IMG/VR virus record: IMGVR_UViG_3300031227_000314 | Coordinates: 1 to 27,961 of that record | Length of the DNA: 27,961 bases | Origin: a virus | Reading direction: 5' to 3' (one strand) | Shown here: one piece after another, positions 773 through 13,801 of the stretch | Position numbering within the stretch: the stretch's first letter is position 1 | How the letters are laid out: each line of letters starts with the position of its first letter | The notes under the pieces: model-generated | Told to the model about the DNA's origin: nothing | What the model saw: the letters and a program-made list of their open reading frames with translations, nothing else | The model's database searches: none | Program-made: the position numbers and the translations under genes

Positions 773-1005
773 AGACAACCCTGCGATACATATGTCAGCA
801 CCCAGGATGCTACCGGACATTAGAAATGATTGACAACGGCGGCGGGGTTTGGCTTGCATGTCCGATGGGACATGGCAAGCTTCACCCGCTGCCAGTGCTG
901 CGTGGAGCAGGTTTAGTGCTCCACGTCGGGGGAACTCGCCTGACGGCACCCTATGTCCGTGGGCCTTTCACTGTCAATCCTCAAAATGCAGACCATCAGC
1001 GATGA
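769..1005 (+). CDS. Small Cys-rich protein, possible zinc ribbon
   Basis: A 78-residue protein starts at an ATG whose ATGA overlaps the stop of the phosphoesterase gene, the usual sign of translational coupling. Cys9-x4-Cys14 and Cys31-x3-His35 in the first half could bind one zinc ion. The C-terminal half has no recognisable domain. Its last 32 bases overlap the end of the convergent recombinase gene. I do not recognise the family, and the function is unknown. The ATGA overlap and the paired Cys motifs are the main reasons to believe it. Other frames in this stretch lack such support. Confidence 0.6.
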   Translation: MKTTLRYICQHPGCYRTLEMIDNGGGVWLACPMGHGKLHPLPVLRGAGLVLHVGGTRLTAPYVRGPFTVNPQNADHQR

Positions 1006-1726
1006 CTTTCCGAATGGTCCTCGGGCTCCAGGGCTTTCCACGGAACGTGCCGCTCATTTGTGTAGCCCAGATAGCAATCCATCCCGAGGAGAGTCCCTGT
1101 TTATGGAACGAGTGGATCAGCTTCACGGCCGCTCGTTCCTGCAGATTCGGGACAAGCTTCTTCTTGTCCTTGGGGTCTAACCCATAGCCGACCGGGATCG
1201 AGCCTACTCGCTCTCCGTTGGCTTTCTTTTTGGCTAGTCCGCGTTTTGTATTCACGCGAATCCGGTCACGCTCGTAAGCTGCGAACAGGGCGAAAATGCC
1301 CTGTACCAGCCGGCCTTCCGGTGAGTTTCCAGTGTTAAGCCCGTTTGCATACTCGATGCGTCCGCCGGCAGCTTGGACGGCAGATACGATCTGGGCATAG
1401 ACCAGGATATCCCTAGCAAGCCGGTCCTGCGTATCCACGACCAGAATGCAGTTATCGCCTTTCTCGATAGCCCAGATGGCCTTTTCTAGACCCTTGCGAG
1501 GGTAGGTTGCTCCGCTTACGTTCCTGTCAGTGTAGACCGCCCTGTACTCCGTGCCGATCCTTCTTCCTCCTGGCCCTGTTACCTCTTCATCGCTCTTAAT
1601 CAGCGGGATCGAGTACCCCATGCGTTTACAATATGCCTTACAGCGTTCGAGCTGCTTTTCGCATGATTGACTTGTCTTGGCATCCGGCCGAGGTGAGAAC
1701 CGAGCATAAAGGATTGCGCTGGTCAT
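974..1726 (-). CDS. Serine recombinase (resolvase/invertase family)
   Basis: This 250-residue site-specific recombinase cuts DNA through a serine nucleophile. The N-terminal catalytic domain shows YARFSP with the nucleophilic Ser and a catalytic Arg, then DTQDRLARD, and the helix AAYERDRIRVNTKRG with the conserved Glu-Arg and Arg residues. The C-terminal part, from PVGYGLDP to the WSPRTIRKV stretch, resembles the start of the 'recombinase' DNA-binding domain of large serine recombinases. It is short, so the protein lies between small invertases and large phage integrases. I chose the ATG at 1726 because GGAGAG lies 5 bases upstream; the frame is open further, to 1810. The first 89 bases overlap the zinc-ribbon gene. 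It is last in the leftward operon. No attachment site or repressor was found, so integration, inversion or dimer resolution are all possible. Confidence 0.92.
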   Translation of the reverse strand: MTSAILYARFSPRPDAKTSQSCEKQLERCKAYCKRMGYSIPLIKSDEEVTGPGGRRIGTEYRAVYTDRNVSGATYPRKGLEKAIWAIEKGDNCILVVDTQDRLARDILVYAQIVSAVQAAGGRIEYANGLNTGNSPEGRLVQGIFALFAAYERDRIRVNTKRGLAKKKANGERVGSIPVGYGLDPKDKKKLVPNLQERAAVKLIHSFHKQGLSSGWIAIWATQMSGTFRGKPWSPRTIRKVIADGLHFED

Positions 1727-1877
1727 ATATTCTCTCCGAGGTGTTATTCTTGACCTTTTCGAGACACTTCTTGCAAAAGGTCCCATGGCCAACGATCTGG
1801 ACGAAGCCACACTTCCTGCATTGGCACTTTTCCTTTGCGGGTCTAATGACGAGAATTCTTTTAGGCGAGGCGTTCAT
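1638..1877 (-). CDS. Small zinc-ribbon protein overlapping the recombinase start
   Basis: A 79-residue protein carries Cys20-x2-Cys23 and Cys35-x2-Cys38, the spacing of a zinc ribbon, within a basic N-terminal half. The start is well supported. GGAG lies 5 bases before the ATG at 1877, and that ATG overlaps the stop of the preceding gene by ATGA. The last 89 bases are shared out of frame with the recombinase, whose own ribosome binding site lies inside this gene, so the two are probably translationally coupled. It could be a DNA- or RNA-binding partner, but no function can be assigned. The part beyond about residue 50 has no evident structure and may be only the price of the overlap. Confidence 0.62.
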   Translation of the reverse strand: MNASPKRILVIRPAKEKCQCRKCGFVQIVGHGTFCKKCLEKVKNNTSERIYDQRNPLCSVLTSAGCQDKSIMRKAARTL

Positions 1878-2179
1878 ATAAACTCCACGGGGTCACAGGT
1901 CTGTCCGAAGTACATCGACTCTTGATTCAGCTCGATCTTGATCCACAAGATACAACTGCGTACTTCCTTCGGGTGAGCATCGGTAACGATAGTTAAGCGT
2001 CGGACCAGCTCACGATAAACTTTACCGCCACATAGATCCTTCCAGTATCCGATACCCTGATGATCGAGCGTACATCCACCAAAGTGCTCCGTTACATGAG
2101 CGAGTATCTTCTCAAGGATCTCGTTGGGAATAGCCGCTCCATTATTGTAGTGGGTCGGCAAAAAAGTAGTGAAAGTCAT
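1874..2179 (-). CDS. Conserved phage protein, paralogue of 6048..6356
   Basis: This 101-residue protein is unmistakably related to the product of 6048..6356. Both begin MTFTT-LPTH-NN, share LFGG/HFGGCTLD, W-KD, VYRE-V-RLT, a Cys-(I/V)-LWIK-like stretch, and both end in DPVEFI. The conserved block of Trp, Asp, Tyr and Arg residues suggests a small folded domain. I do not recognise the family and give no function. Its start is an ATG preceded by a run of G residues (GGGGGGCGAA). It overlaps the following zinc-ribbon gene by ATGA. Having two copies in one block indicates an ancient duplication. Confidence 0.78.
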   Translation of the reverse strand: MTFTTFLPTHYNNGAAIPNEILEKILAHVTEHFGGCTLDHQGIGYWKDLCGGKVYRELVRRLTIVTDAHPKEVRSCILWIKIELNQESMYFGQTCDPVEFI

Positions 2180-2880: not shown

Positions 2881-3513
2881 TCAGGACTCCTGTTGTTCAT
2901 GCTTGGCTCGTTGCATTTTCCCTAATGCCCGTTGCCTTACCTGGGAAACCCATTGCTTTGAACAGTCCAACTGTTCACCAATCTCTTCAAGGGTACGCTC
3001 GCAGTCACCGATGCCATATGACATCTTCACGACGATTCGCTCTATCGGGGTTAATGCCTTGAATAGTACAGACAATTCTTCACGATCGTCGATCTGTTTT
3101 AGCCGGGCAGTATTCCGCTTGTCTTCCATGTCAGCGCCTCGGTCGGAGCCACCCACAATTAGATCGACCTTATCGGCTTCGCTTATATTATAAAACTTGA
3201 CATGGGCCCACAATGCTTCGTAGCACTGATTACGCATCGCACGCTCAAGGTATCTAGCACATTGCCTGTCGCAGTAGCAGGAAAGATCTAGGTTGTCATA
3301 CTTGTCGACGATGGCTAGATTGCAGGCCGAAAGCATAACATCGTAAGGAGCACCAAGAGCGTTGGCCATGCGGCCGGCGATCACGCGAGCCCACGGGGCC
3401 CATTGCTTGAATGCGGCTCGTATTAGTGCGGGGGTCCGTTCGTCCATTAGTGTGGTTCCATTCTCGGTTAAGATTCGATTATGGGTGCTGCTCCGCCTCG
3501 TCTCGCGGTCCAT
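2881..3513 (-). CDS. RNA polymerase sigma factor, phage-encoded
   Basis: The C-terminal 55 residues match sigma-70 region 4. LTPIERIVVKMSYGIG is followed by TLEEIGEQLDCSKQWVSQV, the helix-turn-helix that reads the -35 element, and then RQRALGKM. The N-terminal half (roughly residues 30-110) is helical with Trp, Arg and Tyr residues and probably corresponds to region 2, but is too diverged for certainty. At 210 residues it has the size of a small group-3 or ECF-like factor. It would redirect host RNA polymerase to a subset of phage promoters. The ATG at 3513 follows AAAGG. It lies 12 bases after the phosphoribosyltransferase gene. Which promoters it serves is unknown, since those found here look like host sigma-70 sites. 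Confidence 0.82.
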   Translation of the reverse strand: MDRETRRSSTHNRILTENGTTLMDERTPALIRAAFKQWAPWARVIAGRMANALGAPYDVMLSACNLAIVDKYDNLDLSCYCDRQCARYLERAMRNQCYEALWAHVKFYNISEADKVDLIVGGSDRGADMEDKRNTARLKQIDDREELSVLFKALTPIERIVVKMSYGIGDCERTLEEIGEQLDCSKQWVSQVRQRALGKMQRAKHEQQES

Positions 3514-3525
3514 AGCATCTACCTT

Positions 3526-4182
3526 TCATTTGACTGCGATAATCCTGTCACCTTTAACGGTACACTCAGCTTTCCAAGTGTGACGTCTAGGGAAGTGCGG
3601 CCCCCTGATGATAATCTTACTTCCATCTCGCAAGCCCCTGTCGCTGTACGTGCCTGGCGAGAAGAAATTTATCCTGGTCTTTCGTTTAACAGCTTGCTTT
3701 AGGGCAGTCTTCGTTTGGCAGTTATACCTAGTGTAGTAGTGCTCATCCTTGGGCACGTAAAGGCTACTCACTACACCCTTCGCATAGAGCGTAAAGCCTA
3801 CGCATGTATGGCCCCAGTCCCTCAGTGTTTCCCTGATTTTCTCAATCGTGGCTCCCGTTTCCACGAAGTCATCCAGAATGAGGCAAGACCCCAAGACCTC
3901 GCCTACATGCCGCTGAGATGAGTGCGTCTTATCGCAGGGCTTGCGGAGTAAGATCCAGCTTTTCTCCATATGATCTGCGAGCATAGGGCCGACTAAGGCA
4001 CCGGACATACCGCGAAAAGCAAGCGTGCCAAATTCTATTTGGCTTGCCTTGATTATGCACGCGGTCCTCTCGACGGTCTTCCTTGTATCTACATGGAGGT
4101 TACTGTGGTAGAGATTATTTTTGTCCCATCCCTTGTTAATGATGGTCTTGGAGAGCGGAATACCGAAACTTTTATCTGGCAT
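3526..4182 (-). CDS. Phosphoribosyltransferase-like protein
   Basis: The PRPP-binding signature of type I phosphoribosyltransferases is clear. CLILDDFVETGATI (residues 100-113) places two acidic residues (Asp104, Asp105) and a Thr-Gly turn after a hydrophobic strand. Upstream, FRGMSGALVGPMLA (56-69) matches the flexible N-terminal loop region. The family transfers ribose-5-phosphate from PRPP to a base, as in orotate or purine salvage, but some members act as regulators. The basic tail beyond residue about 160 is not typical. The ATG at 4182 is preceded by GGAG at 6 bases. It sits between the tRNA-like RNA and the sigma-factor gene and is probably on their transcript. The substrate cannot be predicted. 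Confidence 0.85.
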   Translation of the reverse strand: MPDKSFGIPLSKTIINKGWDKNNLYHSNLHVDTRKTVERTACIIKASQIEFGTLAFRGMSGALVGPMLADHMEKSWILLRKPCDKTHSSQRHVGEVLGSCLILDDFVETGATIEKIRETLRDWGHTCVGFTLYAKGVVSSLYVPKDEHYYTRYNCQTKTALKQAVKRKTRINFFSPGTYSDRGLRDGSKIIIRGPHFPRRHTWKAECTVKGDRIIAVK

Positions 4183-4223: not shown

Positions 4224-4362
4224 CACCCCGCCAGGGAATCGAACCCTGGATATATGGAACTCATCACGCAGGGCGGTCTGCTCCGCTTTACTCGCCGATG
4301 CACACATAGTCATCAGCAAACGTGATGAGTCGCAGACCATATACATACCCATATTCGGGGCG
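4224..4362 (-). ncRNA. Compact tRNA-like structured RNA (tmRNA-like 3' domain)
   Basis: Read on the minus strand, the sequence folds into nested helices found by eye. The acceptor-like stem is 4356-4362 with 4224-4230 (7 bp, one G-U). A T-arm abuts it: 4244-4249 with 4231-4236, with loop TTCGATT closed by G and C as in tRNA. A connecting helix is 4337-4344 with 4250-4257. A helix of 11 bp is 4321-4331 with 4258-4268. Two apical hairpins are 4311-4317 with 4294-4300, and 4283-4286 with 4273-4276. The 5-base bulge TCTGC (4332-4336) is complementary to GCAGA in the loop of the second hairpin (4277-4281), a pseudoknot. After the acceptor the sequence reads CC then TTTT, so CCA is not encoded. There is no D-arm or anticodon arm, so it is not an ordinary tRNA. 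At about 139 nt it is far shorter than known tmRNA. Confidence 0.65.
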
Positions 4363-4368
4363 TGTCAC

Positions 4369-4539: not shown

Positions 4540-4568
4540 AGTGTACCTCGGTCCCTGCCCATTGTCAA
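4540..4568 (-). promoter_or_regulatory. Sigma-70-type promoter for the leftward RNA/sigma operon
   Basis: On the minus strand TTGACA (4563-4568) and TACACT (4540-4545) are separated by exactly 17 bases. Transcription would start near 4533 and run into the short ORF, the tRNA-like RNA and the phosphoribosyltransferase gene. The 92 bases between it and the gene ending at 4661 contain direct repeats of GGTACGC but no visible gene. Confidence 0.7.
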
Positions 4569-4660
4569 GGGGCAGGGTACGGGAGACACTAATACTTTAC
4601 TCCACAAGCTTGGAGCCAAAGTCCCTGGTCCAAGTACGTGGTACGCGGTACGCGGCACAC

Positions 4661-5392
4661 TCACTTGGCGTGCGAGTACGAAACAATTCTTTCCCATGCA
4701 CATCTTTCTGCTACTTGCTCCGTGTTGATGTACATATTGAGTCCCTCCTCATTTTCCCAGTATTCATCCGCTTTTTCGGCACAAGTCTCGAATAGCTCAC
4801 GAAGCACGTCGTCGGCCGGCCAGACGAAATCAAAATCGGAGTATTTCCTTTCCAAGCGGCTTGTGAAGTCGTCGCGGACCCGGCTATTCCAGGCTTCTTC
4901 AGTCACTTCTGATTCGATTTCGCATATCGCATCGCCATCAATTACGGGGTAGTCCTCCATTGCCTCCAAGGTCTCCAATACTTCAACGAAGGTCTCTTCG
5001 CTGCATTGCAACAGAGCGGACAAGCCAAATACGACGTTCCAACTACCGCAAGCACCGTAGATCGCCCAGACGATATCCTTGCCCTTGTAGTCCTTGAGAA
5101 TGCAGTTAGCGTTTGCCTTTGTGGAGATTGCCCCACTGTAGTCTGAACCGCCGAAATGCGGCGGGGTGAAGTAGAGTTCACCGGGGTCGATTTCGTCGGT
5201 CGAGAGGTTCTTCAGGTAGTCGTTAGCGTCGACCGGGATGGGCATCTCAGACAAGTCTGTCGTGTAGGCCTCGGCGTTTCCGCTCAGTTTCCGAACATGG
5301 GATGAGTGCTCCCAGCCATCATAGCTACACCATCGGAGGCCATGAAGTTTAGTGATCCGGCCGAGACGATCTTGTGGAGTTGGGTCGTTCAT
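4661..5392 (-). CDS. Acidic hypothetical phage protein
   Basis: This 243-residue, strongly acidic protein has about 12 Trp/Tyr residues. Its core, around LETLEAMEDYPVIDGDAICEIE and EEAWNSRVRDDF, resembles from memory a recurrent family of acidic phage proteins of unknown role that share a 'YPVID-DA-SE-E' pattern. That resemblance needs a profile search. No catalytic motif or membrane segment is visible. The ATG at 5392 follows GAGACC, a weak site. It is the last gene of the small-gene cluster before the promoter at 4540-4568. The long plus-strand frames here are shadows. It is probably an early host-interaction protein, but that is inference from position only. Confidence 0.78.
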   Translation of the reverse strand: MNDPTPQDRLGRITKLHGLRWCSYDGWEHSSHVRKLSGNAEAYTTDLSEMPIPVDANDYLKNLSTDEIDPGELYFTPPHFGGSDYSGAISTKANANCILKDYKGKDIVWAIYGACGSWNVVFGLSALLQCSEETFVEVLETLEAMEDYPVIDGDAICEIESEVTEEAWNSRVRDDFTSRLERKYSDFDFVWPADDVLRELFETCAEKADEYWENEEGLNMYINTEQVAERCAWERIVSYSHAK

Positions 5393-6008: not shown

Positions 6009-6047
6009 GACTAGACTCCCTTGTGTTGTTGCCCCTGCTCGCTGGTT

Positions 6048-6356
6048 TCAGATGAACTCGACCGGATCGGAAGACTGGGTAAGGTACATAGCCTCTTGGC
6101 AAAGTAGGCCTTTGATCCACACAATACATGGGCGGACGGCGTCGGTTTGCTTGTCCTCCACGGAGAACGTTAGTCGCTGGACCTCTTCGCGGTACACCTC
6201 GCCGGTCTTCGGGTCTTTCCATGCCCCCAGACTTGGCGGATCAAGGGTGTATCCGCCGAATAGGTCCAAGACGCGTTCTAGGATCGTGTCTAGAATGTCA
6301 TTGGTGATGGGGCGGAGATTGTTGAAGTGCGTGGGCAGACAGGTCGTGAACGTCAT
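6048..6356 (-). CDS. Conserved phage protein, paralogue of 1874..2179
   Basis: This 102-residue protein shares its start (MTFTT-LPTHFNN), the LFGGYTLD, W-KD and VYREEV-RLTF blocks, the CIVWIK stretch and the final DPVEFI with the 101-residue protein at 1874..2179. Shared residues spread over the whole length make them true paralogues. The ATG at 6356 is preceded by AGGAGACAAAAGACA, the same leader type as its neighbours, and overlaps the stop of a 24-residue leader ORF. The frame is open upstream to 6458, but a promoter lies there. The function is unknown. Confidence 0.8.
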   Translation of the reverse strand: MTFTTCLPTHFNNLRPITNDILDTILERVLDLFGGYTLDPPSLGAWKDPKTGEVYREEVQRLTFSVEDKQTDAVRPCIVWIKGLLCQEAMYLTQSSDPVEFI

Positions 6357-6427
6357 TGTCTTTTGTCTCCTAATTGGATTAACCGAATCAGCATCAGTTG
6401 CCGGCGGATAATCTGTTGCGTGGTCAT
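6353..6427 (-). CDS. Possible 24-residue leader peptide
   Basis: Between the promoter at 6447-6474 and the 102-residue paralogue lies a short ORF, MTTQQIIRRQLMLIRLIQLG followed by DKRQ. It is basic and rich in Ile, Leu, Arg and Gln. Its ATG follows GAGGG at 8 bases. Its stop overlaps the next start (ATGA), so translation of the two is probably coupled. It may be a regulatory leader or a minimal gene. No attenuator hairpin was seen. Confidence 0.4.
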   Translation of the reverse strand: MTTQQIIRRQLMLIRLIQLGDKRQ

Positions 6428-6446
6428 TGTCTTGCCCTCTACCTAT

Positions 6447-6474
6447 AGTGTACGTCATCCTGAGTGAAAGTCAA
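6447..6474 (-). promoter_or_regulatory. Sigma-70-type promoter
   Basis: On the minus strand TTGACT (6469-6474) and TACACT (6447-6452) are 16 bases apart. The -10 is the same hexamer as in the promoter at 4540-4568. It would drive the leader ORF and the paralogue gene 6048..6356. Confidence 0.6.
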
Positions 6475-8746: not shown

Positions 8747-8776
8747 TTGACAAAAAGGCCTCAATTCGGATATAGT
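8747..8776 (+). promoter_or_regulatory. Sigma-70-type rightward promoter
   Basis: TTGACA (8747-8752) and TATAGT (8771-8776) are 18 bases apart. The same hexamers with the same spacing occur at 15567-15596. It lies 47 bases before the first gene of the rightward block. Confidence 0.72.
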
Positions 8777-11825: not shown

Positions 11826-11991
11826 TAAAGAAGCGAACGACAGGGGATTGCGTCGCATGGAGGATGCCATATGGGGCAGCCCGGACAAGAACATGCTCTC
11901 TTCGGAGGAGCTAGGTCGCCTCGAAGCAGCCGCCAAACAGTACATTAAGCAGTACGAGGAACAAGCTCAGAAGAGGGAGACTGTTGAGTAA
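11812..11991 (+). CDS. Small helical protein before terminase
   Basis: A 59-residue, highly charged, probably all-helical protein starts at GTG. GAGG lies 7 bases or so upstream. It reads MTAYNKEANDRGLRRMEDA at the start and ends in LEAAAKQYIKQYEEQAQ. The first residues resemble those of the preceding membrane protein (MTYNKE), because both genes contain the 12-base string TATAATAAAGAA near their starts. It overlaps the terminase start by 8 bases. It could be a minimal small terminase or a terminase accessory protein. I cannot decide. Confidence 0.62.
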   Translation: MTAYNKEANDRGLRRMEDAIWGSPDKNMLSSEELGRLEAAAKQYIKQYEEQAQKRETVE

Positions 11992-13801
11992 GTTCTCCCC
12001 ATTCTATGGCTCGGTGCCAAGCGGGTATGAGGAGAACCTCAAGTGGCGCGCCAAGGTCCATAGGCGTGCCCTTGAGGATCCAGAGTTCGTGGCAGGTATC
12101 TGGGAGGCCTGCTCGAAGGACATCCTCTTCTACATGGCCGGCTTCCTTTGGACGTATGATCCGAGGAAGCGCCCGTGGGCGAAAGTGCCCTTCATTCCCT
12201 ATGAGTTCCAGGAAGAATCTCTCGAAGTCATCCTGAGCTGTATCGGAGTAGAGGATCTACTCATCCTCAAGTCACGAGACATGGGCGCTTCATGGATGAA
12301 CGCCGTGGCATGTGAATGGATGTGGCACTTCTCGAAGTCAGAAGGCAGCCTCCTGTTTGGGTCCAGAACAGAGGAGTACGTCGAGTCGAAGGACGGCAAC
12401 CCGAAGTCATTATTTTTTAAGATTGACTACATCCTGAATACGCAGCCTGAGTGGCTGCTACCTGAAGGGTTCAATATCCATAATCGAGAGTGCAGAAGTA
12501 AATTGCATCTCCGAAACCCGGCCACCGGCTACGTCATTGATGGAGAGTCGACGACTGGGGACTTTGCTCGTGGCGATCGCCGGACAGCAATTCTTCTAGA
12601 TGAGTTTGCCGCCGTTGAGAACGGCCATAAGGTTCTCGGCTCGACTCGTGACGTGACCAACTCTCGGATCTTTAATAGTACCCCAGCAGGTACAGGGAAC
12701 GCATTCTATGCCATTTCTCAGACGAATATCAGAACTCTTAGGCTTCACTGGACTCTTCATCCCGAGAAAGCTCGCGGTCTGTACACAACCGATAAGCAAG
12801 GATGTCTCGAGGTCCTCGACCAGGACGGTTATTCGGATGAATACCACCCGATACTTGATGGTAAGACACGATCGCCTTGGTACGATCGTGAGTGCGAGCG
12901 TTGTGTCTCCGTTAGGGAAATTGCTGCAGAACTCGACATGGACTTCGGGTCCTCCCAGTCCCAGTTTTTCGACGTCCCCAAAGTCAATGAAGCGATAAGA
13001 AAGTACGCTAGAACGCCAGGTATGGTTGGCGATCTCGAATATGACATACAGACCGGCGAGCCAGACGAATTTCGCGACAGCGCGAACGGCCTATTGAAGC
13101 TGTGGGTTCAGTTAGATGGCAGCATGAAGCCATCACTGGAAACTAAGTATGTTATTGGGTGTGATGTTTCGGCCGGCAGTGGCGCATCGAATTCGTGCCT
13201 GGCAATTTGGGATAAGGTTCTTAGAACTAAGGCTGGTGAATTTACCACCCCATACGTCAGGCCAGAGGCCTTGGCTTATCAGGCCGTAGCTATTGCAAAA
13301 CTTTTTGGGAACGCCACGCTCATCTGGGAAGACCGTGGGCCTGGGCAGCAGTTCGGAGCCAGGATTCTCGATCTCAACTATGGGAATGTATTCACCAGGA
13401 AGGCTGTCTCTTCTATTACGAGAAGGCACACTGATAAGGCTGGATGGGCACCAGGGCGCGAGAGTAAGCTGCGTTTAATGGGTGCCTACCGAACAGCGAT
13501 AGAGAAGGATCGTTGCGCTAACTTCTCAAGGGAAGCACTGGAGGAATGCTTGGAATATATTTTCGACGGCCAAGGCGGAGTAAAGCATGCCGCTGAAGAT
13601 GACAAGATGGATCCATCTGGAGCTAACGCGCAACATGGCGACCGCGTCATGGCCGACGCTATGGCTTGGCATTGCTGTACTGAAGTGAAGCCGAAGATAT
13701 GCCAAGAGCAGCCGGAGATTCCAATAGGGAGTCTTGCTTGGCGTAAGCAGCAGCGTAATAAAAAGAAAGAAAACAAAGGGGAACTAGGTAACGGGTGGTA
13801 A
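11984..13801 (+). CDS. terL: Terminase large subunit (packaging ATPase/nuclease)
   Basis: This 605-residue motor protein pumps DNA into the procapsid and cuts it. The ATPase domain shows a Walker A variant, KSRDMGASW (96-104), then Walker B with the catalytic Glu in ILLDEF (203-208), and the coupling motif STPAGTGNAF. The RNase H-like nuclease domain has Asp394 in VIGCDVSAG, an acidic pair in LIWEDRGPG, and Asp553 in HGDRVMADA, the usual three acidic positions. The length is close to that of T7-type terminases. The start is TTG at 11984, preceded by GAGGGAG and overlapping the upstream gene by 8 bases. The packaging strategy (cos or pac) cannot be told. Confidence 0.95.
   Translation: MSKFSPFYGSVPSGYEENLKWRAKVHRRALEDPEFVAGIWEACSKDILFYMAGFLWTYDPRKRPWAKVPFIPYEFQEESLEVILSCIGVEDLLILKSRDMGASWMNAVACEWMWHFSKSEGSLLFGSRTEEYVESKDGNPKSLFFKIDYILNTQPEWLLPEGFNIHNRECRSKLHLRNPATGYVIDGESTTGDFARGDRRTAILLDEFAAVENGHKVLGSTRDVTNSRIFNSTPAGTGNAFYAISQTNIRTLRLHWTLHPEKARGLYTTDKQGCLEVLDQDGYSDEYHPILDGKTRSPWYDRECERCVSVREIAAELDMDFGSSQSQFFDVPKVNEAIRKYARTPGMVGDLEYDIQTGEPDEFRDSANGLLKLWVQLDGSMKPSLETKYVIGCDVSAGSGASNSCLAIWDKVLRTKAGEFTTPYVRPEALAYQAVAIAKLFGNATLIWEDRGPGQQFGARILDLNYGNVFTRKAVSSITRRHTDKAGWAPGRESKLRLMGAYRTAIEKDRCANFSREALEECLEYIFDGQGGVKHAAEDDKMDPSGANAQHGDRVMADAMAWHCCTEVKPKICQEQPEIPIGSLAWRKQQRNKKKENKGELGNGW

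Follow-up and report, generated by a model that had tools for sequence, protein, structure and literature searches.

The bacteriophage T4 produces stable RNAs of no known function, which we tested as candidates for a comparison. One of these RNAs, the species 1 RNA encoded by rnaC (Table 1), was reportedly sequenced decades ago. In its fold (z -4.57), the acceptor stem runs directly into a T arm and 1 nt separates the latter from a 10-bp hairpin; a long arm is present and an anticodon arm absent. Matches to rnaC occur in 720 phage records, and in an alignment of eight sequences 92% of the pair cells are paired, with changes on both sides in 23 of the 49 pairs. This alignment holds 36 cells with double changes, a number that none of 500 shuffles attained, and the signal is abolished when the pairing partners are slid; the changes are strongly compensatory. 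The acceptor carries two U-U mismatches in seven of the members and is fully paired in the Yersinia phage fHe-Yen9-01, and in the Melville phage the long arm has been swapped out with the T arm and acceptor kept. Rfam 15 contains no family that matches T4 rnaC. A T4 study from 2022 reports RNAC and RNAD as late RNAs that are detected as Northern blot bands and whose function is yet unknown (PMC9697503), and a review on RNase P cites a paper titled on tRNA-like molecules produced in T-even infection (PMC11143913).

The tRNA-like domain of tmRNA (about 350 nt for the whole molecule) consists of an acceptor, a T arm, a D-loop-like strand devoid of a stem, and a long helix at the T arm. The mascRNA/menRNA family (RF01684; gathering threshold 42.5 bits) comprises eukaryotic, tRNA-like RNAs of about 60 nt that are cut from a long RNA and have no anticodon arm. 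YrlA, a bacterial Y RNA found in bacteria and phages, combines a tRNA mimic with a long stem. A 13-bp stack of acceptor and T arm is present both in the allo-tRNAs and in tRNA-Sec (8+5 bp), and both of these retain the anticodon arm.

The RNA that we compare here with these systems is encoded in a phage whose 27,961-base linear virus record is called the window in the following. The genes at the portal and capsid positions, assigned by their location and through relatives, follow the gene for the large terminase. The terminases of related phages are 40-55% identical and their capsid proteins at most 74%; a capsid with 74% identity to that of the window phage is found in G022 (the L121 relative), a complete 50-kb record with overlapping ends. 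Among bacterial genomes, the capsid has matches in Cerasicoccus frondis (71%) and in one Verrucomicrobia bin (66%), and the host is therefore probably a member of the Verrucomicrobiota. A preliminary description of the locus had placed phosphoribosyltransferase and sigma genes downstream of the RNA, and these are indeed found there; the first assignment is based on a match to phrog_2068, the Pfam score being under the cut-off. Close relatives of the phosphoribosyltransferase (PRTase) gene and of the gene at 4661-5392 were not found in IMG/VR, and no PRTase was found in 28 related records and genomes. Two paralogous genes of unknown function on the minus strand of the window (1874-2179 and 6048-6458) are 57% identical to each other and have relatives in L045 and L046.

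The helices reported in the preliminary description, including the T-loop UUCGAUU and the two hairpins at the top, are all present in the fold of the minus strand from 4362 to 4224 (Table 1). The acceptor comprises 7 bp with one G-U pair and is continuous with the T arm, so that a stack of 13 bp results. Helix 2 (GUAUAUGG/CCAUAUAU; 8 bp) reaches the first base of the T arm without any linker, and is continued by helix 3 (GACUCAUCACGU/GCGUGAUGAGUU), which had been given as 11 bp in length and measures 12 bp when its two terminal G-U pairs are included. Within the linker that occupies the place of the D arm, a mini D stem of 3 bp (AUA/UAU) is possible, and its GGG could dock on the T-loop in the manner of G18/G19 of tRNA.

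Table 1. Features of the window and of the RNAs compared with it; positions are those of the window unless another record is named.
Feature	Position	Strand	Details
Serine recombinase gene	974-1810	-	
Sigma-70 region 4 protein gene	2881-3513	-	
Phosphoribosyltransferase-like gene	3526..4182	-	start codon 42 nt 3' of RNA; phrog_2068, E 1.5e-14
Two further C, then TTTT	4223-4222	-	directly after the RNA
tRNA-like RNA, 139 nt	4224..4362	-	5' end 4362; fold z -3.46; joint geometry 0/20000 shuffles
3' acceptor strand CGGGGUG	4224..4230	-	followed by CC, then UUUUCUGUU; CCA not encoded
T arm CCAGGG-UUCGAUU-CCCUGG, 6 bp	4231..4249	-	sequence and fold
Helix 2, 3' strand	4250..4257	-	directly adjoins T arm; fold
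Helix 3, 3' strand	4258..4269	-	fold
Arm hairpin 2, GCGG-AGCAGA-CCGC	4273..4286	-	loop bases 4281-4277 complement the bulge
Arm hairpin 1 (UUUGCUGAUGAC..GUGCAUCGGCGA)	4292..4319	-	fold
Helix 3 (12 bp), 5' strand	4320..4331	-	partner 4269-4258; fold
Bulge UCUGC, 5 nt	4332..4336	-	exact complement of 4281-4277; possible pseudoknot
Helix 2, 5' strand GUAUAUGG	4337..4344	-	partner 4257-4250; fold
Linker AAUAUGGGUAU, 11 nt, with GGG	4345..4355	-	in place of D arm, D-loop-like; sequence; unpaired in MFE and centroid
5' acceptor strand CGCCCCG	4356..4362	-	partner 4230-4224; fold
Large terminase gene	11984-13801	+	
T4 rnaC (species 1 RNA, band C), 139 nt	NC_000866 70908-71046 (L357 1547-1409)	- (L357)	annotated 'small, stable RNA'
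83-nt RNA without anticodon arm	L204 6988-6905	-	8-bp acceptor and 5-bp T arm, one long arm; z -4.13

This fold is non-random and tRNA-like. A stretch of 171 nt folds with -66 kcal/mol, compared with -50.4 kcal/mol for the average of its shuffles (z -3.46; equalled by 0 of 200 shuffles), and the minimum free energy structure agrees with the centroid. When the T arm and the 3' acceptor strand were held fixed and the upstream 300 nt were shuffled 20,000 times, an abutting helix of at least 8 bp appeared in 2.7% of the shuffles and an acceptor strand in place in 0.55%; the abutting helix together with a continuation of at least 11 bp, or together with the acceptor, was found in none of the 20,000. 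As the preliminary description had stated, a hairpin loop matches the 5-nt bulge: the loop of hairpin 2 contains GCAGA, the exact complement of UCUGC. Such a match has a chance of 1.7% for Watson-Crick pairs and of 15% when G-U pairs are allowed, and is hence by itself modest evidence for a pseudoknot. Three other structures were considered and set aside. The plus strand folds with similar stability (z -3.41), yet the T-loop can be read on the minus strand only; a 50-nt alternative with the acceptor GCCCUGC competes with helix 3 and is less likely; and a nested GGUCUGC/GCAGACC helix in place of the pseudoknot costs 6 kcal/mol when the fold is forced.

Set beside the T4 species 1 RNA, the window RNA is likewise phage-encoded and 139 nt in length. 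In both, the acceptor continues into a UUCRA T arm, a GG-containing strand comes after the acceptor, a helix stands next to the T arm and a long arm is present, while an anticodon arm and an encoded CCA are lacking. They differ in the construction of the middle part: rnaC splits it between the 10-bp hairpin that precedes the T arm and a distinct long arm, whereas the window RNA has a single composite arm; moreover, rnaC is located in a tRNA cluster, and in most members of the rnaC family the acceptor carries the two U-U mismatches. A covariance model of the rnaC family (R2) scores T4 at 158 bits, the Yersinia phage at 144 bits and, with the filters switched off, the window RNA at 8.5 bits, aligning the latter end to end in such a way that its helix 2 falls on the rnaC hairpin before the T arm; with default filters, the window RNA is absent from the R2 matches. 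The general layout is thus shared, and membership of the window RNA in the rnaC family and kinship of the two RNAs are not supported. The earlier view that no class of this size and layout had been described is nevertheless wrong because the T4 species 1 RNA equals the window RNA in length and in general layout, and the window RNA is a variant of a poorly understood kind of phage RNA rather than an undescribed class.

Searches with tools for established RNA families identify the locus as neither a tRNA nor a tmRNA. ARAGORN makes no tRNA or tmRNA call at the RNA, which has no cloverleaf with a 7-nt anticodon loop, and Rfam (RF00005 included) yields no tRNA or tmRNA match in the window or in a 241-nt stretch on its own. 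The canonical features of a tRNA that the window RNA does exhibit are the acceptor stem, the T stem and the T-loop TTCRANN. For the 241-nt stretch, the best sub-threshold Rfam match is mascRNA/menRNA (19.4 bits, E 0.12), with which the window RNA has in common its tRNA-like character and the missing anticodon arm; this match relies on an alternative acceptor strand. YrlA (RF02553) does not match the window RNA at E<=10, and a Ro60/TROVE gene was not seen in the fragment. The 13-bp stack is reminiscent of tRNA-Sec, although it is divided as 7+6 bp in the window RNA, which has no tRNA-Sec match and, unlike tRNA-Sec and the allo-tRNAs, no anticodon arm. In the literature on YrlA or phage decoys, no description of the window RNA was found.

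A covariance model built from the window RNA (R1) detects no homologue in any of the sets searched with it, which comprised 1.56 Mb of related loci, 38 whole virus records together with two bacterial genomes, and 388 genomes from the phylum. An IMG/VR scan for the D-like strand combined with a T arm returned a complete list of 49 stretches, none of which has the layout of the window RNA, the exact 28-nt 3' end of the latter was not found in IMG/VR, and the blastn matches in phages and plasmids were confined to T arms of tRNAs and short chance similarities. The RNA was absent from relatives whose capsids are as much as 74% identical, and it is therefore not conserved within its phage clade. A looser IMG/VR pattern retrieved mostly ordinary tRNA arrays and a few enlarged tRNA-like genes, and none with the layout of the window RNA was among the matches listed. 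Two of these listed matches, L276 and L328, contain canonical D, T and acceptor arms with a stretch of about 53 nt replacing the anticodon loop; this gene is near identical between both contigs, and no other tRNA is called in the fetched loci. Also among the matches listed in the two IMG/VR scans are phage tRNA-like genes of about 120-160 nt in L392, L251, L240/L254, L277/L298, L290 and L351 that possess acceptors of 7-8 bp, T arms and enlarged middles; L392 resembles a tRNA-Asn with an enlarged D region, and L251 has an encoded CCA.

The related phages contain few tRNA genes. A strict T-arm pattern occurs 22 times in 2.87 Mb of their loci, and a matching 7-bp acceptor accompanies 8 of these 22 and none of the 14 T arms found in the reversed sequence. 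Some of the T-arm finds are ordinary tRNAs, and several are odd ones that ARAGORN misses, such as the decayed-looking tRNA-like sequences in L069, L083 and L198. L083 has intergenic T-arm sequences without a tRNA call at 6034 and 5404 (minus strand) and at 8757 and 8880 (plus strand), two of which are near-identical (GCACGGCGCCGCCCGGTTCGAGTCCGGGCCCGGGGGATC). The clearest of the odd cases is the 83-nt RNA of L204, a locus of the G022 record; this RNA lies between ATPase-like and DUF669-like genes (assigned by eye), a genome position that differs from that of the window RNA. It is the top non-self R1 match of the search that returned it (27.9 bits, E 6.8e-5), and its best Rfam match, tRNA-Sec at 20.8 bits, is sub-threshold.

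Several explanations other than a functional RNA acting in trans have to be weighed against these data. The window RNA might be a non-functional relic of a tRNA gene, perhaps tRNA-Glu-like, in which an insertion or rearrangement did away with the anticodon arm and which is now drifting. Its 3' end GGTTCGATTCCCTGGCGGGGTGCC resembles a verrucomicrobial tRNA-Glu (GGTTCGATTCCCCGTGGGGGTGCCA), the G-U closing pair included, a similarity that would fit descent from a tRNA whether or not the RNA is functional; the decayed-looking sequences of the relatives and the absence of the RNA from all relatives examined point in the same direction. Decay would break stems, however, and the window RNA keeps all of them: neither the T arm nor the acceptor is damaged, good pairing persists over 48 bp, among them those of a 20-bp arm, and the arm adjoins the T arm without a linker while the acceptor is in register, a combination seen in 0 of 20000 shuffles. 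We regard a relic as rather unlikely, though it is the main rival reading. The intact 5' acceptor strand and the long structured arm speak likewise against a phage attachment site, in which the T arm and 3' acceptor would have been copied from the 3' end of a host tRNA gene and neither of these elements would be needed. A serine recombinase is encoded in the window, but serine integrases seldom use tRNA genes, and about 2.4 kb separates the integrase from the site. Although tRNA 3' ends are common targets of integration (PMC9897764), 286 genomes of the probable host class, from which the true host may differ, contain no match with at most two mismatches, and this explanation is very unlikely.

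Equally at the far end of the scale, and exceedingly unlikely in our view, is a minimal tmRNA in which the tRNA-like domain would carry a very short mRNA-like arm for trans-translation. The preliminary description had called the RNA tmRNA-like, and the geometry of the top half justifies the comparison: the acceptor, the stemless D-loop, the helix 2 placed at the T arm and the possible pseudoknot all correspond, so that a tRNA-like RNA with a tmRNA-type top half is supported. What did not stand up is the remainder, since the three-frame translation of the window RNA contains no ALAA-like tag, an encoded CCA and an Rfam tmRNA match are absent, the G-U sits at pair 2 of the 7-bp acceptor instead of pair 3 (G3-U70 in 7-bp numbering), and no SmpB-like gene was seen among the scanned proteins. 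Improbable, too, is a role in cis as a leader that would control translation or transcription of the PRTase gene and might include a small leader peptide. The RNA is on the same strand as this gene and 42 nt before its start codon, a small hairpin surrounds the PRTase ribosome-binding site, and short open frames overlap the RNA, one of which starts at 4368 with a GTGA overlap with the stop of the upstream frame. The codon usage of the frame from 4368 cannot be told apart from that of real genes, among which it ranks at the 31st percentile, but it is equalled by 8.8% of open wrong frames. Against a leader stand the failure to find an intrinsic terminator in the region, the lack of an Rfam riboswitch match, the position of the odd tRNA-like genes of the relatives in front of unrelated genes, and a fold from the RNA through the start codon in which the tRNA-like part stays an independent domain.

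On the minus strand between 4481 and 4288, two short overlapping frames, one terminating as ..GPTKAESGMRSCEPESIFK and one GTG-started (MTRPEYGYVYGLRLITFADDYVCIGE), each closed by a stop codon, extend into the RNA; they have no family match. The claim of a strong promoter in the preliminary description is weak, as the region holds three promoter-like matches against an expectation of 1.8 +/- 1.3, among them one of 10/12 about 180 nt upstream of the RNA and one of 9/12 at 4400-4372. A perfect 8-bp dyad, CCCTGCCC-cttgacaat-GGGCAGGG, is situated on the minus strand at 4553-4577 with the TTGACA of the best promoter-like match at its centre and looks operator-like.

We tentatively favour the explanation, quite possible in our judgement, that the locus is a phage gene for a tRNA-like RNA that has kept the top half of a tRNA with its acceptor stem, T arm and a GG-bearing remnant of the D-loop, has replaced the anticodon arm with a long, branched and perhaps pseudoknotted arm, and acts in trans as a tRNA mimic. 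The helices of the window RNA differ in sequence and therefore do not derive from one recent inverted duplication. In the cell, host RNase P would trim the 5' end, and host enzymes would process the 3' end and add CCA, while the tRNA-like elbow would give the RNA stability. By analogy with the T4 species 1 RNA, which presumably does so, the RNA would work in trans, with its tRNA-like acceptor and elbow offered to a host tRNA-binding protein without the ability to decode. Most likely, its target during infection would be an enzyme that processes or cleaves tRNAs, for which the RNA would be a decoy, sponge or scaffold.

The T4 species 1 RNA has a counterpart in the window RNA, which equals it in size and general layout, comes from an unrelated phage of another bacterial phylum and shows no sequence kinship to it. 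RNAs of this type might be a general and repeatedly evolved phage strategy, in which the T4 species 1 RNA, the window RNA, the 83-nt RNA of L204 and perhaps further RNAs whose anticodon loops have been replaced would act in trans as tRNA decoys or scaffolds. Host enzymes that cleave or process tRNAs would bind them without being able to use them; as it stands, we hold this wider proposal to be unlikely. Both tRNA finders and Rfam miss such RNAs, and further ones may therefore sit unannotated in phage genomes. Through the comparison, the question of the function of the T4 species 1 RNA becomes testable, and together the two RNAs suggest that phages benefit from an acceptor plus T arm as such, even when no anticodon goes with it.
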